Positions 1,962 to 36,564 of a DNA stretch of 37,580 nucleotides are shown here, piece by piece. The stretch comes from Deltaproteobacteria bacterium. GTDB taxonomy: Bacteria > Myxococcota_A > Polyangia > JAAYKL01. The stretch covers positions 1-37,580 of the forward strand of contig JAUXHN010000016.1 of NCBI GenBank assembly GCA_030621515.1, read 5' to 3'. Position 1 is the stretch's first letter. Each line of letters opens with the position of its first letter. The position numbers and the translations under genes are program-made. The notes under the pieces were generated by a model, which was not told the DNA's origin, ran no database searches, and saw only the letters and a list, made by a program, of their open reading frames with translations.

Positions 1962-3425
1962 TCAATCCAATCCCCGGTGCAACTTGAATCTCCTGAACGC
2001 CAGGGCCGACATCTTGAGGAGCAGCAGGCCGTGGCGGAACCTGTCGATCTTGATATCGCCGTACTCGCGGTTGCGGTAGCGAATGGGAACCTCGCAGATC
2101 TTGAGATTCTGCTTGGCGGCCCCGAACAGCAGGTCGAAATCTCCGAACGGATCGAACTCCCCGAAAAACGAACGACCCCGCTCGATGGCCTCGTAGTCCC
2201 GCTTGAATAGAACCTTGGTGCCGCACAGGGTGTCCGTGAGTCGCTGGTCCAGAAGCCAGCTGAACACCCACCCGAAGAAGTGATTGCCGAGCATGTTGAG
2301 AAAGCGCATCGCCTGATCGTCCATGGGATAGACCAGGCGCGAACCATTGATGAACTCCCCTGTGCCCTCCACCAGGGCCTTGTAGAATTTGGGCAGGTCT
2401 TCGGGCCGAACGGTGATGTCCGCGTCCAGGATCATGAACACATCGCCAACGGCCTCATCGAAGCCCATCCGAACCGCGTCGCCCTTTCCCACGCCCGGCT
2501 GGACGAACACCCGCACGTTATCGAGATCGGGGTTGAGCTCGCCCCTTGACTTCATGCAGCGCTCGATCTCCTCCACCGTGCCATCCTGCGAGTTACCGTC
2601 CACAAAGATTATCTCCGTACCGAGTCCCATCTTGGGAACGGCCCTGAACAACTCCTCGATGTTGCCCCGTTCATCCTTGCATGCCACGATCACCGAGACC
2701 GTGTAGTCCTTGCGTGGGGTATCCGGCGATTTTCTGGCCACGACCAGCTCGTTTATCGACAACCGGCTCAACCCCGGAACAGTGCCGACAAAGTCGTTGA
2801 TGAGATCGGAGATGACCGGAATCTTCACCGGGCAGACCATGTCGCGGCCGCGCTTGACCGGTTCGATTCCCTCGAGGGCGAGCAGGTTCTCCAGATCGGC
2901 GAGCTCCAGCCAGTTCTGGTCCCGCTGACGCGGCTTGATGCCCATGAGCTCGGCAACCTTTACCAGCGGACCCCACAGGTAGTTGAAGTCGACGACTATT
3001 ATGCGGGTACGCTCGTGACACAGGCGTTTGATACCGGCAATCATTCGCTGCACATCCACGACATCGCCGACCACGTTTGAAAGTAAAACAAAATCGAAAC
3101 GCTCGTCGATATCGAGGTGCTGGATGTCAGCCGCCATGAACTCGAGATCGGGATGACGCTCCTTCGCGAGGTCGATCATCTCCGTGCTGAAGTCGATACC
3201 GAGCCCGCGTTTCGGCTGGAGGAAGGCCAGCAGATCTCCCACACCGCAACCGAGTTCCACCACCGACGAGCCCTTCGGAACGTTGAAACCCACCAGCTTG
3301 CGCAGCCTCTCGTAGTAGTAGCTCTTGAATGGCCCCGGTGTAAGGTAATTACTGGCCACTCCATCAAAAAATTCTCGCTTTGCATCGGTGAGCCGATGAT
3401 CGCTCTTGGGAACCCGAGACGTCAT
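1962..3425 (-). CDS. Fused SAM methyltransferase and GT2 glycosyltransferase
   Basis: A 487-residue two-domain protein. Residues 20-235 form a class I SAM-dependent methyltransferase, with motif I VVELGCGVGD at 55-64 and the acidic residue of GIDFS at about 78. Residues 240-480 form a GT-A fold family 2 glycosyltransferase, beginning YTVSVIVACKDERGN, with the D334-A-D336 metal/nucleotide motif and VGKGDAVRMG before it. This part resembles DPM1/ArnC-type polyprenyl-phosphate glycosyltransferases, but no C-terminal membrane helices are obvious. The ATG at 3425 has an excellent ribosome binding site (GGAGG 7 bases upstream). The open frame continues upstream, but only as antisense of the next gene. 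The GT-C gene follows directly. A reasonable inference is that this protein makes a lipid-linked or methylated sugar that the GT-C enzyme uses. The two domains are more often found as separate proteins. Confidence 0.85.
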   Translation of the reverse strand: MTSRVPKSDHRLTDAKREFFDGVASNYLTPGPFKSYYYERLRKLVGFNVPKGSSVVELGCGVGDLLAFLQPKRGLGIDFSTEMIDLAKERHPDLEFMAADIQHLDIDERFDFVLLSNVVGDVVDVQRMIAGIKRLCHERTRIIVVDFNYLWGPLVKVAELMGIKPRQRDQNWLELADLENLLALEGIEPVKRGRDMVCPVKIPVISDLINDFVGTVPGLSRLSINELVVARKSPDTPRKDYTVSVIVACKDERGNIEELFRAVPKMGLGTEIIFVDGNSQDGTVEEIERCMKSRGELNPDLDNVRVFVQPGVGKGDAVRMGFDEAVGDVFMILDADITVRPEDLPKFYKALVEGTGEFINGSRLVYPMDDQAMRFLNMLGNHFFGWVFSWLLDQRLTDTLCGTKVLFKRDYEAIERGRSFFGEFDPFGDFDLLFGAAKQNLKICEVPIRYRNREYGDIKIDRFRHGLLLLKMSALAFRRFKLHRGLD

Positions 3426-3557
3426 ATTTTCCTCCGAAACAACAATTGGAATTTGAACAGAATATCGGAAAACAGAAAAAAATTCACGGTTTTGAAACTG
3501 GACGGACCTCTCAGTGTGGTTATAGTGCTTCCTGGTCTTGAGAGGGTAGTAAATGAC

Positions 3558-6500
3558 ATGAGAGCAATTGGAATTGATATCGGGGCCGAGACAGTAAAAG
3601 TCGTGGAGCTTGCCCTCGGCAAGAACGGCGAACCTGTCTGGACAAAAAGAGCGCTGCGCGAGCACCACAAGGAGCCCGGCGTGGTGCTGCTCGATCTGCT
3701 GAAAAGCTGGGGATGGGACGGCATCGACGGCGCGGCGATCACGGGGCGGCTGAGCCGAAACATCAGGCTCGAGAGAATCCCCGTCAAGCAGGCCCAGCTC
3801 TCCGGGTTCCGGTTCCTCTTCGGGGACGAGCCCGCCACTGTGGTTTCCATCGGGAGCCACGGCTTCTCCGTGCTCGAGCTTCGGTCGTCTCAACTGGAGA
3901 TGTTCCGCGAAAATCACCGATGCTCCCAGGGTACGGGCAACTTCCTGCGGCAGCTCGTTGAACGATTTGACATGAGCATCGAGGATGCCTCCGATCTCTG
4001 CAAGGGCATCGCGGATCCGGCCCCACTTTCCGGCCGCTGTCCGGTGATCCTCAAGACCGACATGACCCACCTCGCGAACAAGGGAGAGCCGAAGGAGCGG
4101 ATCCTGGCGGGGCTGTACGACGCGGTCTGCGAGAACGTTCAGGTACTCATCAAACCGCGACTCAGCCCGAAGAAGATGACCCTGATAGGCGGGGTCGCCA
4201 GAGCCGACCGGATAAAGAACAACTTTGCGCAATTCGCGAAGCGGCACGACATGGAGTTGGTTCTACCTGCGGGCGACGACGGGCTGTTTTTCGAGGCCCT
4301 CGGTTGCGCCGTAATCGCAGCGAAGAACCCGGGGCCGGTGGCACCCATGGATGATCTTATCGGGCCGCCCGAGGAGCACGAACTGGACAGACTCCCGCCG
4401 CTCGCTGAATTTCTTTCGCAGGTCAAGCGGCTGAAACCCAGGAAAAAGCCGGCAAGGAAAAACACCTCATCACTCATACTGGGCTTCGACATCGGTTCCA
4501 CGGGATCCAAGCTCATCGCCCTCGACACGAAGACAAGAAAAGAGGTGTGGGACACCTATGTCGCCACCAACGGCGCGCCGGTCAGGGCAGCCCAGGCGCT
4601 CATGCGGAAGTTCGCGGACAGCGACCACGCAAAGACCACGGTCATGGCGGTGGGAGCCACTGGAAGCGGCCGGGAGATCGTCGGATCGCTCATGTCAACC
4701 TGTTACGGCGCCGATTCCGTCTTCGTGCTCAACGAGATCGCCGCCCACGCGGAAGGGGCGCTCCATTTCGATCCCAGCGTCGATACGATATTTGAAATTG
4801 GAGGCCAGGACGCCAAGTATATCAGGCTCTCCGGCGGACGCGTGATCGACGCGGCGATGAACGAGGCCTGCAGCGCAGGCACGGGCTCTTTCATCGAGGA
4901 GCAGGGGCGCAAGTTCTCCGGCATCAAGAGCGTCGTACAGCTCGGAGAAGAGGCGCAGGAGGCAAAGAGCGGCGTCTCTCTCGGACAGCACTGCAGCGTC
5001 TTCATGGCGGAGATCATCGACGAGGCGGTTGCCGCCGACATACCGCGACGGGCGATCATCGCCGGCATATACGACTCGATTATCCAGAACTATCTCAACA
5101 GGGTGAAGGGAAGTCGATCCGTGGGGCAGGTGATCTTTTGCCAGGGAATGCCCTTCTCATCAAACGCGCTCGCCGCAGCGGTGGCGAGGCAGACCGGATC
5201 CCAGGTGATCGTTCCACCCAACCCGGGGACCGTGGGCGCGCTGGGGATCGCCCTGCTTACACTCAAGGAACTGAATCTGAAGAAAAAGAAGGGCCTGGGC
5301 ATCGACCGTTTTCTCGAGGCCGTCGTCGAAAAGAAAGATGTTTTCATATGCAAGTCCACCAAGGGTTGCGGCGGTTCGGGCAACCACTGTCGGATTGATC
5401 GGATCACCACCCTCGTCGCCGGCGTGCGCAGGAAGTTCACATGGGGCGGATCGTGCTCCCTGTACGACAAGGGAACCGGAAAAACGAAACTGCCCGACCT
5501 CGCGCCGGACCCATTTCGGGAGCGCGAGGATCTGGTGGCCGCCATCCGAGACAGGCTTCAGGTGCCTCGGGGCAACAAGACAATCGCCATCACCGACGAG
5601 GTGGTGCTCAAGGGCTTGTTCCCGTTCTTCGCCACCTTCCTGCACGGAATCGGTCTTGATCCAGTGTTCCACTCCAATGCGGACCAGGCCACTCTCAAGC
5701 GCGGCATCGAGGACGCCAACGTGCCATTCTGCGCGCCCATGCAACAGTATCATGGGCTGGCCAGCATCATGGCCGAGGGGAAGCCGGACTACCTCTTCTT
5801 TCCGATGTTGCGCGGCATACCGCGGCTCGAAAACGAACCGTGGGCCCGCCTGTGCCCGATCATCCAGGGCAGCGCGGACATTCTGATAGCGGACCTGAAG
5901 GGAACGCACAGCGTGATCGTTTCACCTGTCATCAACATCGGCAGGGATAATTTCCGCTCCAGGCTGTTCATAGACAGCATCACCGCCCTCGCGGACGAGC
6001 TGAATGTCGAGGAGGAGATCTGGCGGCCCGCCTACGAGGACGCTGTCGGAGTGCAGGAAAAGTTCGACGCCGAATGTCTCGTCATCGGCCGGCGCGCCCT
6101 CGATTATTGCAACGAGAACGATATCACGCCGGTGGTGGTGCTCGGCAGGACCTATACGATTTACAACACCGTGTTGAATTCCAATGTGCCGACGCTCCTG
6201 CGGGAACAAGGCACAATCGCTGTCCCGGTGGATTGTTACCCTGTCTCGGACGAAATCCCGATCTACGATCGGGCATACTGGGGATACGGGCACCGTAACA
6301 TCAGGGCGGCACACCAGATCCGACGCACACCCGGAATATACAGCCTCTACGCAAGCAACTACGCATGCGGACCGGACAGCTTCAACGTGCACTTTTACGC
6401 ATATGTGATGGAAGGCAAGCCCTTCGCCATCATCGAGACCGACGGACACTCCGGGGACGCGGGTACCAAGACGCGAATCGAGGCGTTCCTGTACTGCGTC

Positions 6501-7883
6501 CACGAGGACAAGAGCATGGAGGACTCGGTGCGCAACGACGCGAGGGACCTGCTCAAACTACAGAACCGAACTGACAGCGTGGCAGAGATCCAGTCACGCA
6601 ACGCCACCGTCCTCATCCCACGCATGGGCGCCGGGGCGGATCCCCTTGTGGGTTGTTTGAAGGGCATCGACCTGGACGCCGAGGCTCTGCCCGAACCCGA
6701 TCAGGAGGCCCTCTCCCTGGGCCGTCGGTACACGTCGGGCAAGGAGTGCTTCCCCATGGTGATCACCCTTGGAAGCCTCTTGCAACGCCTCGAACACGAG
6801 AAGGATCCGGACAGGAAGTTCTCCTTCTTCATGCCCACCGCCAACGGACCTTGCCGCTTCGGCGCCTACGTCACCCTGGACCGGATAGTCCTCGAACGGC
6901 TCGGCTGGAAGGACCGGGTTTCCATATGGGCGCCGGTGGACGCGGACTACTTCGAGACCGTCCCGGACGGTTTCGCGGCACTGGTGTACGCCGTGCTGAC
7001 CGCCTCTGATCTACTGCTCGAAGGTCTCTACCACTCCCGCCCGACAGAGACCCGGCCCGGCGCCGCTCATGAGATCTGGAGCTACTACATGAAGGAGCTC
7101 GTCGATCTATCTGAGCGCTCGGCTCGGGGGAATCTATCCGCGGGGGCTGTTGTGGCACAGGTCATGGGAGGCCATGTATTCGGCGTGGCGGATCTGCTCA
7201 AGCGCGCCGGCGTGGCGTACCAGGACATCACGGAGGAAAGGGACATACCGGAGGTGCTCGTGGTCGGAGAGATCTATGTGCGCTGCGATCCGTTCTCCAA
7301 CAACTTCGTCGTGGACAAGCTGGAGAAGCGCGGTATCCGCTGCCGGTTCGCCCCGTTCAACGAGTGGCTCGAGTACACCGACTACCAGGACACCCGAAAG
7401 AGCAACATCCCGGAGTACGTGACCGGCTACCTGCAGGCCTCCATACAGCATCAGCTGTACTTCGCGATGGCCAGGATCATGGGCTGGCACAAAAGGACCA
7501 CGGTGCAGGATTCCCTGCTGGCGGCGAAACCGTATATCAGGGAGCAGCTCTCCGGCGAGGCGGTGCTCACATTGGGCGGACCTCTTCACGAATGGAGGGA
7601 AGGCATCATCGACGGCGTTGTCAGCGTGGGTCCGTTGGAGTGCATGCCCAACAAGATCGCGGAATCCCAGTTCTTCCACGTGGCCGAAAAGGAGGGGTTG
7701 CGCTCGCTCACTCTCCACCTCAACGGCGATCCCGTGGATCCGGAGGTTCTGGACAACTTCGCCTACGAGATACACGCCCAGTACGCCCGCAAAAAAGCCG
7801 GCCTCAGCGTTCCTCCCCCTCCCATCCGACCCAGGGCGCCCATCTGGAAGACCCAGAGCAAGATCAACCCGATGGACAACTAG
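3558..7883 (+). CDS. Giant double-domain acyl-CoA dehydratase activase-related protein
   Basis: A 1441-residue cytoplasmic protein of the BadF/BadG/BcrA/BcrD ATPase family. Two ASKHA ATPase modules are visible. Module one (1-260) opens MRAIGIDIGAETVK. Module two (305-575) opens LGFDIGSTGSKL, with the second phosphate motif FEIGGQDAKYI near 412-422. Each module keeps the pair of cysteines that holds the bridging [4Fe-4S] cluster in HgdC-type activators: C122 and C161 in the first, C438 and C479 in the second. The remaining ~860 residues match the DUF2229/2-hydroxyglutaryl-CoA dehydratase-like part seen in long members of the family, with cysteines at 1064 (GKECFPM) and 1099 (NGPCRFG). True activators of about 270 residues drive ATP-dependent electron transfer to 2-hydroxyacyl-CoA dehydratases; the substrate of the ~1400-residue forms is unknown to me. 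The ATG at 3558 begins exactly at the first ATPase motif, behind a GAGAGGG sequence. An intrinsic terminator spans the stop codon. Confidence 0.88.
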   Translation: MRAIGIDIGAETVKVVELALGKNGEPVWTKRALREHHKEPGVVLLDLLKSWGWDGIDGAAITGRLSRNIRLERIPVKQAQLSGFRFLFGDEPATVVSIGSHGFSVLELRSSQLEMFRENHRCSQGTGNFLRQLVERFDMSIEDASDLCKGIADPAPLSGRCPVILKTDMTHLANKGEPKERILAGLYDAVCENVQVLIKPRLSPKKMTLIGGVARADRIKNNFAQFAKRHDMELVLPAGDDGLFFEALGCAVIAAKNPGPVAPMDDLIGPPEEHELDRLPPLAEFLSQVKRLKPRKKPARKNTSSLILGFDIGSTGSKLIALDTKTRKEVWDTYVATNGAPVRAAQALMRKFADSDHAKTTVMAVGATGSGREIVGSLMSTCYGADSVFVLNEIAAHAEGALHFDPSVDTIFEIGGQDAKYIRLSGGRVIDAAMNEACSAGTGSFIEEQGRKFSGIKSVVQLGEEAQEAKSGVSLGQHCSVFMAEIIDEAVAADIPRRAIIAGIYDSIIQNYLNRVKGSRSVGQVIFCQGMPFSSNALAAAVARQTGSQVIVPPNPGTVGALGIALLTLKELNLKKKKGLGIDRFLEAVVEKKDVFICKSTKGCGGSGNHCRIDRITTLVAGVRRKFTWGGSCSLYDKGTGKTKLPDLAPDPFREREDLVAAIRDRLQVPRGNKTIAITDEVVLKGLFPFFATFLHGIGLDPVFHSNADQATLKRGIEDANVPFCAPMQQYHGLASIMAEGKPDYLFFPMLRGIPRLENEPWARLCPIIQGSADILIADLKGTHSVIVSPVINIGRDNFRSRLFIDSITALADELNVEEEIWRPAYEDAVGVQEKFDAECLVIGRRALDYCNENDITPVVVLGRTYTIYNTVLNSNVPTLLREQGTIAVPVDCYPVSDEIPIYDRAYWGYGHRNIRAAHQIRRTPGIYSLYASNYACGPDSFNVHFYAYVMEGKPFAIIETDGHSGDAGTKTRIEAFLYCVHEDKSMEDSVRNDARDLLKLQNRTDSVAEIQSRNATVLIPRMGAGADPLVGCLKGIDLDAEALPEPDQEALSLGRRYTSGKECFPMVITLGSLLQRLEHEKDPDRKFSFFMPTANGPCRFGAYVTLDRIVLERLGWKDRVSIWAPVDADYFETVPDGFAALVYAVLTASDLLLEGLYHSRPTETRPGAAHEIWSYYMKELVDLSERSARGNLSAGAVVAQVMGGHVFGVADLLKRAGVAYQDITEERDIPEVLVVGEIYVRCDPFSNNFVVDKLEKRGIRCRFAPFNEWLEYTDYQDTRKSNIPEYVTGYLQASIQHQLYFAMARIMGWHKRTTVQDSLLAAKPYIREQLSGEAVLTLGGPLHEWREGIIDGVVSVGPLECMPNKIAESQFFHVAEKEGLRSLTLHLNGDPVDPEVLDNFAYEIHAQYARKKAGLSVPPPPIRPRAPIWKTQSKINPMDN

Positions 7884-20226: not shown

Positions 20227-21348
20227 ATGAAAACCAAAAACACTTTCCGGATAATTGCAATCTCACTTCTCCTGATCTGGCTCGCACAACTCGGCAGTTG
20301 CGCGAACACCACCATCGTCCCGGGCGTTCCCGATTCCGATTCTGATTCCGATGGGGATTCGGATTCGGACGGCGACACGGACTCCGACACCGACTCGGAC
20401 TCCGACACCGACACGGACTCCGACACCGACTCGGATTCGGACACCTCCGTGGACGAATGCGAAGAGGAACTCGATGATTGCGACGATAACGCCACCTGCA
20501 CCGATCTGCCGGATGGCTTCGAGTGCGAATGCAACAGCGGATACGATGGGGACGGCCTGATCTGTGACGACATCGACGAATGCCTCACTACTCCGTGCGC
20601 CACCAACGCCGAGTGCACCAACACGGACGGCGACTACGATTGCGCTTGCCTGACCGGCTACGACGGCGATCCCTACAGTACCATTTGCGACGACATCGAT
20701 GAATGCTCGTTGGGAACCGACCTGTGCGACGTCAACGCCACTTGCACCAACACAGACGGCGACTACTACTGCACCTGCAACTCGGGCTACTCGGGGGACG
20801 GCTTCACTTGCGTTGTGTCGTCCCTGCTGGAGGATTTCGAAACCGGGACATGGCCATGGTCACCATGGGTAACGGTAGACACCGGCGGCACGGTCAGTTC
20901 ATCTTACGCCCACGATGGGTCGAGGGGCATCTTCAACCCGGGCTGGCACTACCGGACTGATGTCACATTCGGAACGACAACCGGGCAGACATTATCTGTG
21001 TGGGCAAGACCGGACAGCGGCACCAGCGGCCGGTTCTACTTCGGTTTCAGCGCGAGCAGCTCCGGCTGCCGGTCGATAATCCTGGCGCCCAACACGACGC
21101 AATTCTTTTTCCAGACCAATACGAGTTGGGGCTACACGGCACAAACAAGTGTTTCACAGAGCTACACCGGCGGAACCTGGTACTACATCGAGCTTGAATA
21201 CATGGGCGGCGGTCAGTACCAGGGCAGGCTCTATAGTTCCACAATGACTCTCCTCAACACCGTGACCCACAATTTCGGGACTGCCAGCCCGGGCGGAATA
21301 GCCATCCGCGCCTTCAACGGTGTCTCCATCGACAGCATTTCGATGTAG
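20227..21348 (+). CDS. EGF-domain lipoprotein with Asp-repeat spacer
   Basis: A 373-residue predicted surface lipoprotein. The signal peptide ends at LGSC (C25). Residues 36-72 are an almost pure Asp spacer alternating with Ser, Thr or Gly. Three EGF-like domains follow at about 76-113, 115-154 and 156-195, each with six cysteines. The second and third begin with the DIDEC calcium-binding signature and have the CTNTDGDY core. The last ~170 residues (EDFETGTWPWSPW, WYYIELEYMGGGQYQG) look like a jelly-roll/laminin-G-like binding domain. The role is probably adhesion or ligand binding; the ligand is unknown. The gene has a clear promoter but no leader or ribosome binding site. A GC-rich hairpin terminator follows the stop. 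Confidence 0.85.
   Translation: MKTKNTFRIIAISLLLIWLAQLGSCANTTIVPGVPDSDSDSDGDSDSDGDTDSDTDSDSDTDTDSDTDSDSDTSVDECEEELDDCDDNATCTDLPDGFECECNSGYDGDGLICDDIDECLTTPCATNAECTNTDGDYDCACLTGYDGDPYSTICDDIDECSLGTDLCDVNATCTNTDGDYYCTCNSGYSGDGFTCVVSSLLEDFETGTWPWSPWVTVDTGGTVSSSYAHDGSRGIFNPGWHYRTDVTFGTTTGQTLSVWARPDSGTSGRFYFGFSASSSGCRSIILAPNTTQFFFQTNTSWGYTAQTSVSQSYTGGTWYYIELEYMGGGQYQGRLYSSTMTLLNTVTHNFGTASPGGIAIRAFNGVSIDSISM
20332..20442 (+). repeat. Asp-codon minisatellite in the EGF lipoprotein gene
   Basis: A 111-base low-complexity stretch made of GAY codons alternating with TCN, ACN or GGN codons (6-base period). Slippage at such repeats could change the spacer length between strains. Confidence 0.8.
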
Positions 21349-21355
21349 CGACAGG

Positions 21356-21377
21356 GCGGGCTTTCCCGCTTCTTTTC
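21356..21377 (+). terminator. Intrinsic terminator after the EGF lipoprotein gene
   Basis: GCGGG (21356-21360), loop CTTT, CCCGC (21365-21369), then TTCTTTTC. The hairpin lies 8 bases after the stop and fits a plus-strand intrinsic terminator. The minus-strand gene that ends at 21376 begins in its T-rich tail. Confidence 0.65.
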
Positions 21378-22365
21378 ACAGTGTCGGCACCGAACCCGGT
21401 GTCGGCGGATCTAGGGGATCCAACCCCCAGGCCCATTCGTCATCATCAGGTAACTCGGCGGATATTCTGGCCGCCGACTTGCCCTCCTTGGGGTTTCCCA
21501 CCTGGCCGAGATACTCGCTCACCAACAAACCGGCAGCGTCCCACAACTGAACGGTCTCTGCGGAACTGTTCTTCAAACCACTGGTGCCGATAGACGAATC
21601 CAGATAGATGATCGTTGCCGATGACGCGGGCGCCGGGTCATCCCCGGCCGACGGATCGAAATCCGGGGACACGATGATCCCTGTTGAACCGGCGCCCAGG
21701 GTGGTCCCGGCCGGGAGTAGATCCCCGTCATGATCCCCGTTGTCATCTATCATCCATCCGGATAGATCCACGGCCGTTGCACCGAAGTTGTGAACCTCGA
21801 CAAACTCCTGATCGGGCTCCGGCCCGTTTGGATCGGCCAGGATCTCCGTGACCGCCACCGGATACCCACCCGTAGCCGTCACATCGAGGACCACCTGATC
21901 CGCGTTTCCGTTGACGTCCTCGAACGAGAGAGTGACCGAACTCACAACACCCTCATCCAGAAGAACCACCGCCGCGTGATGTTCGACCGCCCATTGCGCG
22001 GTTAGCACGCTCGCCGAACCGCTCAATGAACTCGAAACGGTGATGATCGCCGGCTCGTGTGTCTCGAAACGAAACGAAGCCGATGCCGTTCCGGCGGCAA
22101 CGCAAACTCCCTCCGACATGGACTCGAAGGTTCCGCACGCGCCGGTGATCAACATTGGCGGAATCGAATCGTCGGCATCGGTGGCGGGAGGGCCGTCCGT
22201 GTCTCCATCCGTGTCACCGTCCATGTCACCATCGGAGTCACCGGATCCTGAGACGTTTTCCTCTTCGCCTGCGTCGAACAGATCCATCTCGCTCAAGAGT
22301 TGCAGGTTCATGCAACCGCTCGCGGCGACCATCGCCAATATTCCGAGGAGGTTCTTGCATTTCAT
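21376..22365 (-). CDS. Lamin-tail-domain lipoprotein
   Basis: A 329-residue predicted lipoprotein: signal peptide ending AASGC (C18) and an Asp/Gly-rich spacer at about 43-66 (SDGDMDGDTDGDTDG). Residues 70-165 are a beta-rich region without a name. Residues 168-320 form a lamin-tail (LTD) domain, seen in ITEILADPNG, EFVEVHNFG, VDLSGWMIDD and the closing P-T-P-G-S. LTD domains occur in secreted bacterial proteins, often with nucleases or sugar-binding parts; no catalytic domain is present here. The AGGAGGT site touches the ATG with no spacer, which is unusual, but no other start would keep the signal peptide. The function is unknown. Confidence 0.85.
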   Translation of the reverse strand: MKCKNLLGILAMVAASGCMNLQLLSEMDLFDAGEEENVSGSGDSDGDMDGDTDGDTDGPPATDADDSIPPMLITGACGTFESMSEGVCVAAGTASASFRFETHEPAIITVSSSLSGSASVLTAQWAVEHHAAVVLLDEGVVSSVTLSFEDVNGNADQVVLDVTATGGYPVAVTEILADPNGPEPDQEFVEVHNFGATAVDLSGWMIDDNGDHDGDLLPAGTTLGAGSTGIIVSPDFDPSAGDDPAPASSATIIYLDSSIGTSGLKNSSAETVQLWDAAGLLVSEYLGQVGNPKEGKSAARISAELPDDDEWAWGLDPLDPPTPGSVPTL

Positions 22366-28814: not shown

Positions 28815-30023
28815 CTACGGTCCGCCACGCACGCAACGCACATAGTTGTCGTTCACTTTGCCCAACATGGTCACGTTGCCGCCTTCGAAATCGACTTGCC
28901 ATGCATTGAACGTGTTTTCGAAGTAGGACGACGACGACCAGAACACCTCGGTCGGTATGTCCGGAAAGCCGGACGCTGGATTGCATACCTCGATGTCCAC
29001 CAGACCGCGCAGCTCGTTAATGTTGGGCAGGCGCCAGTCGTCGAGCACACCGTAGTCGAGCCCTTCGCAGTACAAGAGCGCTTCCTCCCACGTCCTACCG
29101 GTATCGTGTTCTTTCTGCCACTCCAGCCCGGTTGCCTGGTCCAGCACGATCTCCTGACCCGCAACCCCCGACACCTGGAAGCGAACCGATGAAGTACCAT
29201 GGTACGGCACACCACGCACGCAGCGCACGTTGCCGCTTAACGACGTGCCATATGAAGTGACATGGCCGTGGTTGAAATCGACGTCCCATGCGCTGCCTGG
29301 GTTGCCTACGTCGAACGACGACGACCAGAACCAAGCCAACAGCGTTCCCGGAAACGGAACGGTGTCAATTGTCGGCTCGGTGGCACCGTAGTGCACTATC
29401 CCGGCCAGCGCATGGTACGAGGGCAAGCGCCAGTCGGTGTGGCCACCCCAGTCGAGCGCGGCGCATTCGTCACTCGCCTCCTGCCAGGTCTTTCCGATCA
29501 TCCCAATCCGCTGCCACTCGAGCCCTGTGAGCGAGTCGACCACAGTCTCGTCCGTGTTGGCCGCTCCGGAGCACGGATCCTGGAGCGCGCCGGAACCGTC
29601 GTAGCAGGTGAACGTGCGCGTATTGTCCGCGTACTGCGCGTCCTGGCCGCAGAAAGAGGGCGTGCCGTCCGCGTAGCACGGAAATGCCGTGCAACCCATC
29701 AGTACCGAGTTGTTGTAACATTGCATCTGGTTCGTCGGCTCGGTGAGCCAGCAATCGAATACGTCGCAGTAATCGGTATCCGTATCCGTGTCGGTGTCCG
29801 TATCCGTGTCGGTATCCGTATCCGTGTCGGTGTCGGTGTCTGTATCCGTGTCGGTGTCAGTATCGACATCAGTGTCACTATCCGTATCCGTGTCGCCGCC
29901 TGCGTCGGGCGGCGTTGCGATCGTCTGTTCGTGGCTGCACGAGGACATGAAGAGGAAGACCAGAACAATACAGGCGGCAATCGGCGCATGCCGTGCGCCC
30001 CTAAGAATGGATTCTATTTTCAT
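28815..30023 (-). CDS. DUF1566 (Lcl-type) lipoprotein with Asp-Thr spacer
   Basis: A 402-residue predicted surface lipoprotein. The signal peptide ends FMSSC (C29). Residues 44-84 are an almost perfect Asp-Thr repeat. A Cys-rich segment (85-150) follows, then two DUF1566/Lcl C-terminal modules at about 160-270 and 285-400. Each has TGLEWQ, a W-R-L-P (DWRLP) block, a WSSS strand and a final VRCVRG, as in collagen-like-protein Lcl adhesion domains. It starts two bases after the stop of the TPR/PEGA gene, with GAGG 10 bases upstream of the ATG inside that gene's end, so the two genes are cotranscribed. Adhesion or carbohydrate binding is likely by family. Confidence 0.87.
   Translation of the reverse strand: MKIESILRGARHAPIAACIVLVFLFMSSCSHEQTIATPPDAGGDTDTDSDTDVDTDTDTDTDTDTDTDTDTDTDTDTDTDTDTDYCDVFDCWLTEPTNQMQCYNNSVLMGCTAFPCYADGTPSFCGQDAQYADNTRTFTCYDGSGALQDPCSGAANTDETVVDSLTGLEWQRIGMIGKTWQEASDECAALDWGGHTDWRLPSYHALAGIVHYGATEPTIDTVPFPGTLLAWFWSSSFDVGNPGSAWDVDFNHGHVTSYGTSLSGNVRCVRGVPYHGTSSVRFQVSGVAGQEIVLDQATGLEWQKEHDTGRTWEEALLYCEGLDYGVLDDWRLPNINELRGLVDIEVCNPASGFPDIPTEVFWSSSSYFENTFNAWQVDFEGGNVTMLGKVNDNYVRCVRGGP
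29772..29895 (-). repeat. Asp-Thr codon minisatellite in the DUF1566 lipoprotein gene
   Basis: About 120 bases of GAC/GAT-ACN codon pairs (6-base period; the minus strand codes). The codons alternate synonymously, so the peptide repeat is purer than the DNA repeat, which suggests selection at protein level. Confidence 0.8.
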
Positions 30024-32170: not shown

Positions 32171-34078
32171 TTAGCGCAACTCCAGCCAGTCAAACATCAC
32201 CGCGAGTTTCCTGAAATCAACGGACATACCCAACTCCTTGGGTGAGACCGCATAGGCGAACTCGAAGCTTAAAACACTCTTCTCTCGCGCCTGCGACGCC
32301 GGTACTTCAAACATGTACACGCGGGATTCGGGATCCAACTCGATTCGAGCCAGGCGGACACCGTTGACCCGGACGGTGATGGTCTGCGGCAGCGCGTTAC
32401 CGGGGATGGTCATCGGAGCAGCCCTGAACCTCACAAGGTTATCGCGCCCGGGTTTGAAACCAGGTGAGATTTCCGCGCGTTTTCCGATTGCCCAGACCCA
32501 GGTCGAGTCACCCTCCCCCTCGTTATCACCCCATCCCGAAACAAGATGCTCTCGCGCCAACGGCGTTCCGAAATCCATCGTCGCCATTTTCCGGCGGTAC
32601 CTGGAAAGATCGATACCCAGGTATTGCGGCCCAATTCGGTAGAGGCGCAGGGGACATCTCGATAGCCGGGCAACTTCCTTGGTTCGATAATTCGACATGA
32701 TCACGCGCAGGGCGGCGTCCCCTTCGAGATCCCGGGGGTTGACTATCATGAACACCTGTCTCTCATTCCAGATCCCGTGATTGATCAGCTCCGCCGCAGC
32801 TGGATGACGCCACGAAAAAGACTCGATACCGCCGTACAATCTCAACGGGCCGGTGAAGTCGAGGGCGCCCACCAGACTATTCCCAGGTAGTCTCTTGCTC
32901 ATCTCCAGGGTATCCAGGTAGTAGCTCTCGTCGAAATTGGCGCGGTAGACACCCTCGTTGTGTGAGAACCGAGCCATGCAACACACGGTGACTATAAACG
33001 CGACCGCCGCAATCACATACATGGAGCGTATGCCCCGTGGCCACTTCGCAAGCGCCCTCCTGCCGGCGAGCCCGATGCCGTCTCCCGCGAGCAAGAAGAT
33101 CGCCGGGTATGCGGGCAACAGGAATCGCACCTCCCACCAGGCCTCGATCGAAGGCTCCCAGGTAGACAAGAACAAGACAAACGCAAAGAGCCAGAGGAGC
33201 AGCGGGACATTCCTGCGAAACCCAACGACCGCCGCACAGGCTGCGGGTATCAGGAGCGGCCAGAGCATCGCCAAAGTGGTGCGGCCGAAAAAGGAGAGCT
33301 TGGCCGTCAGAGCGCCGGGACCAATCTCGTGGATGTTGATCCCGTACGGGACGGCCGATGGCCCGCCGAACTGAACGTAGATGTATACGGCCAGGCAAGA
33401 TGCCGCCGCCGCAAACCACAAGATGAGCGAACGCAGCTTGCCACGCTCGCGAGCCGACCACATCAGCGCGGGAAGAAAAAGCACGTTGGTGGGTCTCACG
33501 AGGAGGGAGAGCCCGAGTAGAACTCCCGAGAGTCTCTCCCTTCCCCTGGATAGCAATACATAGGACAGCAAGATGAAAACGGTCGCAGGCATGTCGCTCA
33601 TCACCTGGATCGAACCCCAGGTTACGATGGGAGTCGCGGCCCATAGAATCGAGATTGCCAGGGCGCAAGTGCGACCGCCGGAGCCGGGGGTCAGGGCGAG
33701 GTACATCAATACAACGCTCGCCGCGCCGAGCACCGGCGTGCAATAGAACTCCAACCCAACTGTGCCGAACAGGGCCATGACCGCAGAAAAACCCGGCGGA
33801 AAAATGGAAACCACTTCGCCATCAACCAGCGCATGACACAGGGGCACCAGCGCCGGGTAATCCACAGGGCTCAACCCCAACTCGAGACCCGAATCCAGGC
33901 CGAGGAAGGCGCGGGCACAGGACAGGTAGGCAAAGGGATCGCAGCCTCCGACGTACCTGGATCTGAAGTGGGCCCAGAGAAGAAGCGACAGGAAGGCCAC
34001 GCCGAGGGCGCATGTGTTCTGCCAGACTTTCAACCACCGAATGGCGGCTTCGAGAGTTTGTCCGGTCCACTTCTTCAT
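32171..34078 (-). CDS. GT-C type membrane glycosyltransferase with C-terminal beta domain
   Basis: A 635-residue protein with about ten membrane segments from 20 to 400, followed by a soluble part of about 230 residues. The first periplasmic loop carries an acidic motif (GCDPFAYLSCARAF, SPVDYPALVP), as in GT39/GT83-like enzymes that use polyprenyl-phosphate sugars. The last ~120 residues (TITVRVNGVRLARIELDP, VLSFEFAYAVSP) look like a beta sandwich, possibly a sugar-binding domain. The ATG at 34078 has GAGGG upstream. It is the first gene of a unit with the M24 peptidase. The intergenic stretch before it carries one copy of the GTGTCTGTAAACCTT repeat. It is a second, non-adjacent GT-C enzyme in the window; its acceptor is unknown. 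Confidence 0.8.
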   Translation of the reverse strand: MKKWTGQTLEAAIRWLKVWQNTCALGVAFLSLLLWAHFRSRYVGGCDPFAYLSCARAFLGLDSGLELGLSPVDYPALVPLCHALVDGEVVSIFPPGFSAVMALFGTVGLEFYCTPVLGAASVVLMYLALTPGSGGRTCALAISILWAATPIVTWGSIQVMSDMPATVFILLSYVLLSRGRERLSGVLLGLSLLVRPTNVLFLPALMWSARERGKLRSLILWFAAAASCLAVYIYVQFGGPSAVPYGINIHEIGPGALTAKLSFFGRTTLAMLWPLLIPAACAAVVGFRRNVPLLLWLFAFVLFLSTWEPSIEAWWEVRFLLPAYPAIFLLAGDGIGLAGRRALAKWPRGIRSMYVIAAVAFIVTVCCMARFSHNEGVYRANFDESYYLDTLEMSKRLPGNSLVGALDFTGPLRLYGGIESFSWRHPAAAELINHGIWNERQVFMIVNPRDLEGDAALRVIMSNYRTKEVARLSRCPLRLYRIGPQYLGIDLSRYRRKMATMDFGTPLAREHLVSGWGDNEGEGDSTWVWAIGKRAEISPGFKPGRDNLVRFRAAPMTIPGNALPQTITVRVNGVRLARIELDPESRVYMFEVPASQAREKSVLSFEFAYAVSPKELGMSVDFRKLAVMFDWLELR

Positions 34079-34096: not shown

Positions 34097-34117
34097 CGTG
34101 AAGTGTCTGTAAACCTT
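34097..34117 (+). repeat. Left copy of a 21-base direct repeat
   Basis: The 21-base sequence with core GTGTCTGTAAACCTT (34103-34117) occurs again at 35847-35867 in the same direction with one mismatch. The two copies bracket the PNGase-like gene. The 5' bases are CGTGAA here and CGTGAG in the other copy. Confidence 0.85.
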
Positions 34118-34176
34118 ATTTACCCACACCACACAATTGCCGGTACTATAAACTTCAAATGAGGAGGATATGAAAA

Positions 34177-35832
34177 ATGATAATCTCTCTTGCAAGGTAT
34201 GCCCGATATCTGCTGACACTGGCGCTCGCAGCGAGCATCCACTTCGGAGCCGGTTGCAACTCCAAGAGCAACAACCAGCCCGACGGATCGGTCGACGGCG
34301 GCGCTGACGCAGGCATCGATACAACCTGCGAGGATGGGTTGCCCCCCACCCCCTTCGATAGCAGCGCAACGATAACTGCCTACGACCAGCCCGCGCCCGA
34401 CTTCACTGTGAACACCACCGACGGCGAATGGACCCTGTCGGAGCACTGGACCGGTTGCGACAACTACGTGTTCGTAATGTACAACTCGGGCTACGTGACC
34501 GGCGCTGACCAGCTCTGGGCGTCGAGCGTCGCCGAGATCATCGACGACAGCGCCTCCAATACCCACTACTTCTTCGTCACCCTGGAGACCGGGCTCGCCG
34601 CCGAGGATCGAGAGGCGCGGGTGCTCGAAGTTTGCGACAAGATTCAGGCCCACCTGGAAACCACCGATCAGGCCACCAGAGACCACTGGGCCGATCGGAT
34701 GCACTACGTCACCGACCCCGGACGCGACATCCCGATGGTGGACGGCGTGCTGGATGTCTACGCGGGCGAGGTGCACTTCACCATCGATCGCAAGCAGCTG
34801 GTACGAGAGGGCCACAACACTTCCTATTTCACCGGATCCTCCTGGGTGCCCCAGTTCGGTAACACGCGCTACTGGGCCCGCTACTACAACTCCCAGTACT
34901 TGCTCGACAAGCAGCTCGAGGACCAGGAGGCGGGTGAAGACATGCTGGTGCACCGGGTGGCCGACAGGGAAGACATCGCGGGCAGCGAACCCTTCAACTG
35001 GACCCTCCCGGACGCCGCCACCATCGCCGGGTACGAGAAGCTCGAGATCGACATGCACGTGGACTGCCCCGGGGCGGGGCACCCCTACGGCTCAACCTGC
35101 GGCGAGTGGGACACAGTGGGTAGCCTGTGGCTTTGCGCCGACGATGATTGCACCGCCGAGACCCGGCGCAGGATAGTGAAGTGGATAACCCCATACAGCT
35201 CACCGGGGCGCTGGGTAATCGACATCACGCCGGAGCTGGTGCATCTGGCCGCAGGCGGAGAGCTGCGCTTCATGGCGCAACACGGAGACAACACCGTCGG
35301 CCCGTACACCTACAAATACACGGTCGACTTCCGCTTCCTCAAGGCGGAAGACGGCCTCAGACCCTTCGCCATCGAGCCCATGATTCCCATGGCCAATTAC
35401 CCGTTCGCCGACATGGCCGACGCCTTCGATCCATTCGTCATCACGCCCCCCTCGGGGGCCCAGAAGGTAGAGCTGTATGCCCGGATCTCCGGTCACGGAG
35501 CCGTGCCCCCCAGCGGCTGCGCCGAGTTCTGCACTTTCGAGCACACCTTCGACGTCAACGGCACCGACTACCAGCACGTCTACCTGAAGGAGAACGAAAA
35601 CCGTTGCGCAGAGTGGGTGGAGCTGGGCGTAACCCCTAACCAGGGAGGCACCTGGCACTTTGACCGCTCCTCGTGGTGCCCCGGATGGACCATTGAGGAA
35701 TGGCGGGAGGATCTCACGGAGAGCTTCGATCTCGGCGGCGCCAACACAATCAATCACATCCCCACGTACCTGTCGGGGGACCCGCCGGGCGGCAATATGG
35801 ACGCCCGCGTGGAGCTCGTCTTCTATCAGTAA
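34177..35832 (+). CDS. PNGase F-related lipoprotein with thioredoxin-like N-domain
   Basis: A 551-residue predicted lipoprotein: signal peptide ending FGAGC (C27), then an Asp/Gly spacer. Residues 68-215 resemble a redoxin/thioredoxin-like fold (APDFTVNTTDGEWTLSEHW) with no catalytic cysteine pair. Residues 270-550 match peptide:N-glycosidase F, which releases N-glycans from glycoproteins: TCGEWDTVG, WITPYSSPGRWVIDIT, YTVDFRF, GCAEFC, GGTWHFDRSSWCPG. By comparison with Elizabethkingia PNGase F, D60 is D312 and E206 is E450, both kept; E118 is replaced by Q368. The enzyme may thus have low or altered activity. GGAGGATATG lies before the ATG, and TATAAA at 34147-34152 may be a -10 box. Direct repeats flank the gene. 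Confidence 0.85.
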   Translation: MIISLARYARYLLTLALAASIHFGAGCNSKSNNQPDGSVDGGADAGIDTTCEDGLPPTPFDSSATITAYDQPAPDFTVNTTDGEWTLSEHWTGCDNYVFVMYNSGYVTGADQLWASSVAEIIDDSASNTHYFFVTLETGLAAEDREARVLEVCDKIQAHLETTDQATRDHWADRMHYVTDPGRDIPMVDGVLDVYAGEVHFTIDRKQLVREGHNTSYFTGSSWVPQFGNTRYWARYYNSQYLLDKQLEDQEAGEDMLVHRVADREDIAGSEPFNWTLPDAATIAGYEKLEIDMHVDCPGAGHPYGSTCGEWDTVGSLWLCADDDCTAETRRRIVKWITPYSSPGRWVIDITPELVHLAAGGELRFMAQHGDNTVGPYTYKYTVDFRFLKAEDGLRPFAIEPMIPMANYPFADMADAFDPFVITPPSGAQKVELYARISGHGAVPPSGCAEFCTFEHTFDVNGTDYQHVYLKENENRCAEWVELGVTPNQGGTWHFDRSSWCPGWTIEEWREDLTESFDLGGANTINHIPTYLSGDPPGGNMDARVELVFYQ

Positions 35833-35846
35833 CACCGCCTTCCTTG

Positions 35847-35867
35847 CGTGAGGTGTCTGTAAACCTT
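35847..35867 (+). repeat. Right copy of the 21-base direct repeat
   Basis: Matches 34097-34117 at 20 of 21 bases. It starts 14 bases after the PNGase-like gene and ends at the -35 region of the vapBC promoter. Confidence 0.85.
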
Positions 35868-35920: not shown

Positions 35921-36172
35921 ATGCGAGTTACGATTGAGCTGCCTGACAATCTTCGAGCCAGGGTCATGGCCCTTTCCGCCCAGAGAGGATATCGAGGCTA
36001 CGGTCGGGTTATCGTAGAGGCTGTCGAGTGTTACCTCGACGGGCTCGAATCGAAGCAGGACATCCTCGAAAAGGTTCTTGGAATGGCGGGTTCGTGGACC
36101 CGGGGCGAGACCGAGGATGCCCGCTCGGGTGTGGCCGAGGTACGCGCAAGCTACCGAAAGATGAAGACATGA
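35921..36172 (+). CDS. vapB: VapB-type antitoxin (ribbon-helix-helix-like)
   Basis: An 83-residue protein beginning MRVTIELPDNLRARVMAL, the beta strand and helix of a ribbon-helix-helix or CopG-like DNA-binding domain. The C-terminal tail (WTRGETEDARSGVAEVRASYRKM) is charged and probably wraps the toxin. A near-ideal AAAGGAG site lies 7 bases before the ATG at 35921. The frame upstream is not supported. It overlaps the toxin gene by 4 bases and has an operator-like promoter, as expected for an autoregulated antitoxin. Confidence 0.85.
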   Translation: MRVTIELPDNLRARVMALSAQRGYRGYGRVIVEAVECYLDGLESKQDILEKVLGMAGSWTRGETEDARSGVAEVRASYRKMKT

Positions 36173-36564
36173 TTCTCGTGGATTCGGACGTGATTATCGA
36201 TTTCTTTGCCGGCACACAACCAAGCGCCGACTTGCTGGCACGCTTGCTGGTGAAACACGAGGCGCTGATCTCCTCCGTATCGGTTTTTGAGATCCTCGCC
36301 GGTGTCACGGGCAAGAAAAGGCTGCGTCAGATCGAGGAGCTGCTTTCCATCGTACCTGTGATCGATTTCAACCGACTTGCGGCCGAAAAGGCCGCTGAAA
36401 TCTACACAAAACTGAAAAAGAAGGGCTCGCTGGTGGGTAATCAGGACATCTTTCTCGCCGCCACCGCAAGCTGTGCCGGTATTCCCGTCCTGACCCGCAA
36501 TGTCCAACATTTCAAGCGCATCTCCGGAGTCGATGTCTTGAGGCCGAAGGATTTTGAGCAATAA
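36169..36564 (+). CDS. vapC: VapC-type PIN-domain toxin ribonuclease
   Basis: A 131-residue PIN-domain protein, expected to be a magnesium-dependent RNase held inactive by the antitoxin encoded just upstream. The conserved acidic residues are D5 (MILVDSDVIIDFF), E41 (VSVFEILAG) and D93 (NQDIFLAATA); N111 sits in the LTRNVQHF block. All are present, so the toxin looks active. Its ATG overlaps the antitoxin stop (ATGA). A short hairpin (GAGCA, loop ATAA, TGCTC) covers its stop codon, without a T run. Confidence 0.9.
   Translation: MILVDSDVIIDFFAGTQPSADLLARLLVKHEALISSVSVFEILAGVTGKKRLRQIEELLSIVPVIDFNRLAAEKAAEIYTKLKKKGSLVGNQDIFLAATASCAGIPVLTRNVQHFKRISGVDVLRPKDFEQ

Follow-up and report, generated by a model that had tools for sequence, protein, structure and literature searches.

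Gene organization

The window, as the term is used here, is the whole 37,580-nucleotide stretch of deltaproteobacterial DNA that was analyzed. At positions 34177 to 35832 of its plus strand, which also carries the features of the gene given below, lies an open reading frame of 551 amino acids plus stop. The encoded lipoprotein-like protein joins a thioredoxin-like (Tx-like) domain to a peptide:N-glycanase (PNGase) domain. A Shine-Dalgarno-like AGGAGG (34162 to 34167) lies 9 bases 5ʹ of the ATG, and the first 27 codons (34177 to 34257) specify a signal peptide ending in the lipobox-like FGAG-C27. C27 is present in at least 90% of a set of 45 sequences (A2), a figure that is partly built in, as the start codons of the relatives were picked by a script favoring a lipobox. 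The protein is probably a lipoprotein, as had been proposed in a preliminary description of this DNA, and its location is probably the cell surface. An Asp/Gly/Ser-rich linker (residues 28-65; 34258 to 34371) leads to the Tx-like domain (residues ~66-246; 34372 to 34914), which is followed by the PNGase domain (residues ~254-551; 34936 to 35829). In the structural model of the window protein, residues 1-49 have pLDDT <50.

Several other features of the window were observed. The 15-mer GTGTCTGTAAACCTT occurs at 34103 to 34117 and at 35853 to 35867, so that one copy precedes the PNGase start by ~60 bases and the other precedes the next small ORF by ~54. The genome contains exactly these two copies; allowing up to 2 mismatches, 0.03 would be expected by chance in the window. 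The locus L001, from the same genus, has the upstream copy only. The 15-mer may mark a regulatory site common to both genes or be left over from recombination. The small ORF (35921 to 36172, by eye) overlaps a PIN-domain gene that starts at 36169 (PF01850, E=2e-13), and the two (35921 to 36564) resemble a toxin-antitoxin pair. The ~760-base stretch carrying this pair is absent from L001, where the EF-G leader lies almost directly after the PNGase stop. Further away, the ORF at 3117 to 7883 (1588 amino acids), judged by eye, presumably resembles a fused 2-hydroxyacyl-CoA dehydratase activator-type protein, and the ORFs at 20227 to 21348, 21376 to 22365 and 28815 to 30023 appear by eye to be lipoprotein-like with Ser-Asp or Asp-Thr repeat linkers, the last of them containing two Lcl_C stretches.

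Sequences compared

Conservation is reported for 58 Tx-type sequences, including the window protein, which belongs to a clade of six among them. Left out of the count were L006 and L001, which share their contigs with L002 and L005, respectively; L004, which is the window and is represented by the entry WIN; L060 (the L003 ORF); L019 (which runs off its contig); and L033 (a weak, short match). L075 to L078 re-cover known places. The relatives come mostly from the top of E-value lists, and conservation figures may favor close relatives. For 14 loci, the ORF was selected by a C-x-E-x-C plus W-D/N pattern, a filter that favors E450; all 14 passed with one ORF each, and no locus was lost.

A Tx-like domain with no catalytic cysteine

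The N-terminal third of the protein matches peroxiredoxins in Foldseek (E=1.1e-4 to 4.3e-4) and aligns to 3drn_A in VIA-align with a Z of 10.7 over 144 residues, at model positions 67-243. No cysteine lies at residues 96-125 in any of the 58 Tx-type sequences, the window protein included, and no CXXC occurs in residues 60-254 of any of the 45 sequences of the smaller set; a redox function of this domain was rejected on these grounds. The preliminary description had called the domain Cys-less, with the look of a redoxin fold lacking catalytic cysteines. The peroxiredoxin-like fold and the missing catalytic cysteine hold; C94 and C153, however, both fall within the domain. C94 (codon 34456 to 34458), kept in 49 of 58 sequences, precedes the modeled strand 96-102 and, on our reading of the fold, appears to occupy neither the CXXC nor the peroxidatic position. 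C51 and C94 are both present in 49 of the 58 sequences and both absent in 4, with C51 alone in 5, although the alignment of the leader is uncertain; this co-occurrence fits, but does not prove, a possible structural disulfide between the two. The Tx-like domain of Ngly2, the acid PNGase of zebrafish, likewise has no CXXC and takes part in dimerization (PMC12753239).

Placement in the PNGase F superfamily

The preliminary description had recognized a PNGase F–like C-terminal domain, and Pfam bears this out with a match to PF09113 (N-glycanase_C; E=7.2e-17, 61.9 bits against a cut-off of 25). This C-terminal domain is the only part of PNGase F that Pfam detects in the window protein. PF09112 (N-glycanase_N) matches neither the window protein nor anything in its genome, where no control was detected either, and reaches 5 of the 45 A2 members at E up to 0.1; in a model alignment, the fold of the N-terminal PNGase half matches PNGase F. 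An NCBIfam scan returned one sub-threshold match only.

The closest solved structure is not PNGase F but zebrafish Ngly2 (PDB 9lwg), with a phmmer E of 1.3e-35 against 5.2e-7 to 7.6e-7 for PNGase F; with a 45-sequence profile, the values are 9.1e-93 and ~1e-30. The whole-protein model, which was built from four sequences and has a mean pLDDT of 60.6 with active-site loops <50 in places, aligns to 9lwg over residues 63-551 in Foldseek (E=1.8e-25 over 647 columns) and in VIA-align (Z 23.2 over 427 residues, versus 15.3 for PNGase F). A separate model of the PNGase half (residues 251-551; mean pLDDT 65.0, again with active-site loops <50 in places) gives Z 18.8 to 9lwg and 15.5 to 1pnf, the first non-PNGase row following at Z 9.0. 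The match of this modest model to 1pnf covers two adjacent jelly rolls (rmsd 4.6, 261 residues), so that structural alignment with the Elizabethkingia enzyme, which the preliminary description had suggested as a check, confirms the PNGase fold. No other families appeared in the VIA-align lists, although this does not prove them absent.

In a tree of the PNGase domain (70 rows), a branch with support 96/99 separates the 58 Tx rows, Ngly2 and a Deinococcus protein from PNGase F and nine short paralogues. The tree contains one fish and one Deinococcus sequence only, both attached within the Tx group at forks that it does not resolve, and PNGase F sits on a long end branch (1.78). The window gene is placed on the Ngly2 side of the superfamily, as a variant without the protease-associated (PA) domain rather than as Ngly2 itself.

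Like the window protein, Ngly2 has a Tx-like domain lacking CXXC followed by a PNGase domain, but a PA domain (residues 186-318) is inserted in the former. In the window protein, which unlike Ngly2 is bacterial and lipoprotein-like, Pfam finds no PA match at E up to 10, and ~125 fewer residues precede the PNGase domain than in 9lwg (63-250 in the window protein versus 51-363). PA matches are likewise missing from all 56 of the 58 Tx sequences that were scanned: 45 and 10 were searched at E up to 0.1, and L059 at E up to 1. The positive control, the D. radiodurans homologue, was detected at 1.8e-12. The possibility that the larger relatives L059 to L072 conceal a PA domain was considered and rejected, as no PA match was found in the 12 of these 14 loci that were covered (all except L068 and L072), 11 of them scanned directly and L060 scanned with A2 as the same ORF as L003. 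Judged by eye, the larger relatives owe their extra length to insertions within the PNGase half. In L059, L069 and L070, a long one precedes the region of the catalytic Glu; L061 to L066, L068, L071 and L072 have one with cysteine in the N-terminal jelly roll, and in L067 the insertion there is Asp/Ala-rich.

The Deinococcus radiodurans protein WP_010889584.1, an accession named in PMC12753239, is probably the PNGaseDr of PMC12381499, to judge from the species. It falls on the Ngly2 side of the tree, retains the catalytic Asp and Glu and the equivalents of W346 and H440, and by eye has a lipoprotein-like start; it differs from the window protein in its PA domain, a Tyr after the Trp-Asp and a shorter loop. 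Elizabethkingia PNGase F (1pnf, 1pgs, 1png, 3pms) shares the two jelly rolls at 15-18% identity in structural alignments but has no N-terminal Tx-like domain, and its E118 loop and R61 differ. PNGase F-II and the B. massiliensis PNGase (4r4x, 7zgn) also share the fold (Z 13.2 and 12.3), whereas their N-terminal domain is bowl-like rather than Tx-like. The nine short PNGases (L020-L024, L029-L032), which come from the window's class, family or genus, belong to the superfamily and keep the catalytic Asp and Glu; these short proteins have no visible Tx-like domain, cluster with PNGase F and carry WDR, and an Asp opposite E118, in 9 of 9.

The catalytic core

D312 and E450 stand opposite the catalytic D60 and E206 of PNGase F in 16 of 16 MAFFT alignments, the positions already given to them in the preliminary description. 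Both are invariant in the 58 Tx-type sequences and in the nine short paralogues, and their equivalents are found in Ngly2 (D421 and E555), the Deinococcus protein and PNGase F. In Ngly2, D421A and E555A each abolish activity (PMC12753239). D312 lies in the triplet W311-D312-T313 (35107 to 35115), in which W311 corresponds to Ngly2 W420 and the catalytic Asp is followed by an unusual Thr, and E450 is encoded at 35524 to 35526. W311, R497 and W500 are also kept in 58 of 58, and H440 (35494 to 35496), which corresponds to Ngly2 H546 and PNGase F W191, in 57 of 58. Of the histidines proposed for the acid activity of Ngly2, H546 is therefore matched by H440, whereas H422 is replaced by T313. The window protein retains cysteines C297, C308, C448, C452, C477 and C501. 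Mutation of Ngly2 Trp480 leaves feeble activity (PMC12753239). The identification of W346 with this residue was ruled out, as W346 maps to Ngly2 W455 and W480 maps to T373.

Residue 368 and the E118 loop

The preliminary description had aligned Q368 with E118 of PNGase F and read the Glu-to-Gln difference as a possible sign of weakened or lost activity. Its statement that E118Q cripples PNGase F is correct, with <0.10% of wild-type activity quoted second-hand in PMC9102325. The alignment itself is found in a phmmer pair alignment and in 6 of 16 MAFFT set-ups (4/4 pairwise, 2/4 clade-only). By contrast, all 8 family-wide MAFFT set-ups and hhalign place Q368 opposite Y116 and G370 opposite E118, and in 2 of 4 clade-only set-ups and two full-length alignments E118 faces a gap. 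On our reading, the family-wide register preserves the alternating hydrophobic pattern of the strand, and the profile alignment agrees with it. Residues 370-377 have pLDDT <50 in the whole-protein model, and fixing the register of the E118 loop would take a confident structure. In neither register does a Glu come to lie opposite E118.

Whichever register is chosen, Gln is not fixed: the residue at column 368 is Tyr in 16 of the 58 sequences, Asp in 12, Asn in 6, Gln in 5, and Glu and Gly in 4 each, with others making up the rest. Within the clade of six, Gln occurs in three proteins (the window protein and those of L005 and L002) and Ala in the other three. Q368 thus belongs to a variable column and is not a mutated conserved residue, and a Glu-to-Gln knock-out was rejected given this variability and the offset of the family-wide alignments.

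E118 is itself unconserved in the superfamily. Its place is taken by Asp in Bacteroides group 1 and by Gly in type II enzymes, such as PNGase F-II and the B. massiliensis PNGase, in which its function probably passes to another Glu (PMC9522356). Neither Ngly2 nor the D. radiodurans protein has a Glu or Asp in the loop, and Ngly2 is reported to be active (PMC12753239), as are six recombinant PNGases, from D. radiodurans, an oyster and a myxobacterium among others (PMC12381499). Since Ngly2 and others are active although the Glu is absent, the missing Glu does not predict lost activity. E118 in PNGase F blocks core alpha-1,3-fucose (PMC9522356), and in models of the six PNGases the surroundings of C3 of the core GlcNAc are open, a feature that was tied to action on core alpha-1,3-fucosylated substrates (PMC12381499). 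The preliminary description was right in several of its parts; its conclusion from one residue was wrong.

Two features set the window's clade apart. The remodeled loop Q368-Y379 (35278 to 35313) contains the stretch GDNxVGxYTY, which, like Thr313, is shared by all six clade members and absent from the 52 other Tx proteins. The residue after the catalytic Trp-Asp is Tyr in 42 of the 58 sequences, Arg in 9, Thr in 6 and Val in 1. An "aromatic-Asp-positive/aromatic" motif has been described at the catalytic Asp (PMC12381499); Thr313 lies outside this pattern and therefore makes the clade an exception to it. The clade is joined by a long stem branch (0.69, support 100/99), and by eye the window protein departs from the family's GG-F-YN stretch, which follows the first jelly roll. 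To judge from the alignments, Thr313, the GDNxVGxYTY loop and T373 in place of Trp480 are better candidates for altered specificity than is Q368.

Genome context and distribution

The preliminary description had taken GT-C enzymes in the window to make surface glycoproteins plausible substrates, a suggestion that now looks weak. The adjacent GT-C-like gene (32171 to 34078) has a sub-threshold PMT_2 match only. It adjoins the PNGase gene in the same-genus locus L001, which shares the gene order around the window gene, and is not seen in L002, L003, L007, L008 or L034, where flanks extend ~1.5 kb a side or less in L007, L008 and L034 and ~0.3 kb on one side in L002. In tblastx, these five loci give convincing matches to the PNGase gene only. 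The neighbor was accordingly rejected as a functional partner. In L003, tblastx pieces at 844-2517 (locus coordinates) hint at another PNGase-like gene, lying a few kb upstream of the one compared here.

No match to the oligosaccharyltransferase STT3/PglB was found in the genome, although the controls that were detected were all archaeal and the power of this search on bacterial PglB is uncertain. GH92, GH20 and GH38 also gave no match, with their controls detected, and one GH18 was found; the genome is 95.9% complete, and single absences are no proof. A second Tx-PNGase is encoded on contig C93 (L026 / L073). It is 33% identical to the window protein and falls into another subclade; its motif is WDY and its loop is short.

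Counting the window's own genome and the short paralogues, a protein match was found in 21 of 59 relatives and in 157 of 377 sampled genomes of the phylum. Among viral contigs, 29 stretches included none that was related, and a plasmid collection contributed two records, from Deinococcus and Hymenobacter. Ngly2 orthologues are reported to exist in some bacteria, and their pH profiles have been called interesting (PMC12753239). Nothing on Tx-PNGases in Myxococcota was found in the literature, as judged at the level of listings and with subscription papers mostly outside the scope. The word "thioredoxin" occurs 0 times in the PNGaseL paper, and the Labilithrix enzyme PNGaseLl is described as a catalytic module plus linker.

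Proposed function

The layout of domains, the intact catalytic pair, the failure to find a PA domain and the clade-specific loop are results of computation; activity, dimerization, surface location, substrate and pH range are inferred. With this division in mind, the gene quite likely encodes a working peptide:N-glycanase of the Ngly2 branch, carried by a probable surface lipoprotein, whose likely substrates would be foreign eukaryotic N-glycoproteins. In this proposal, D312 and E450 sit in the cleft between the jelly rolls and would hydrolyze the GlcNAc-Asn amide bond, releasing the glycan and leaving Asp in place of the glycoprotein Asn. The peroxiredoxin-like domain would be structural, probably serving, by analogy with Ngly2, as a module for dimerization and orientation, and the cleft, unlike that of Ngly2, would have no PA lid. 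The rebuilt E118 loop would be more likely to shift the tolerance for core sugars, such as core alpha-1,3-fucose, than to decide between an active and an inactive enzyme.

Removal of foreign N-glycans is favored because no oligosaccharyltransferase match was found in the genome. Given that STT3, GH92, GH20 and GH38 all gave no match, the protein would serve neither the cell's own N-glycoproteins nor a standard pathway for feeding on N-glycans, and the absence of matches to the three glycoside hydrolase families suggests that the released glycan may not be used. Deglycosylated foreign proteins would be opened to proteases, as has been proposed for Ngly2 (PMC12753239), and exposure of proteins in this way would be the most economical reading. 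Against a working PNGase count T373 at the place of Ngly2 Trp480, the break that T313 makes in the motif of PMC12381499, the "not much activity" ascribed in the same source to the oyster PNGaseCg, and the modest quality of the two models.

That the protein binds glycans but has lost catalysis, as the Glu-to-Gln reading implied, is very improbable. The pairwise alignments and the near inactivity of E118Q PNGase F speak for it, but they are outweighed by the variability of residue 368, by family-wide alignments that place G370 or a gap at E118, by the activity of Ngly2 with no acidic residue in the loop and by the full conservation of D312, E450, W311, R497 and W500; the activity of type II PNGases with Gly at this place points the same way, though there another Glu is said to compensate. 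A redox enzyme in the Tx-like domain, or a one-Cys peroxidase acting through C94, is scarcely credible: the peroxiredoxin fold and the retention of C94 in 49 sequences would fit, but C94 precedes its strand and is missing from 9 of the 58, residues 96-125 are free of cysteine throughout, and the Ngly2 counterpart, also lacking CXXC, serves dimerization.

The alternative that keeps an active amidase but has the clade moved to a different Asn-linked sugar or glycopeptide, away from ordinary eukaryotic N-glycans, is unlikely, even though several of the clade's peculiarities speak for it. Thr313 and the loop are exclusive to six of 58 proteins, the stem branch is long, the GG-F-YN stretch is altered in the window protein, and the C93 paralogue from another subclade may leave the window copy free to specialize. 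The catalytic pair and the six cysteines from C297 to C501 are nevertheless kept, and a candidate substrate is lacking. A broader version of this idea, itself rather doubtful, is that the PA-less Tx-PNGase lipoproteins centered on Myxococcota are a counterpart of the acid PNGase of fish eggs and that the window's clade, with Thr313, its loop and perhaps D371 standing in for E118, acts on a different Asn-linked glycan beside the paralogue.

The preferred reading remains that of a working PNGase, with an ordinary catalytic core set in an unusual and little-studied layout. Its analysis corrects a trap, in that a residue needed by PNGase F is unconserved in the branch on the side of Ngly2. Moreover, the window opens the way to a group of such proteins that is common in one bacterial phylum. 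These Tx-type sequences look like natural PA-less variants and can be used to test whether the PA lid sets the demand of Ngly2 for flexible peptides, as well as which residues set acid activity.
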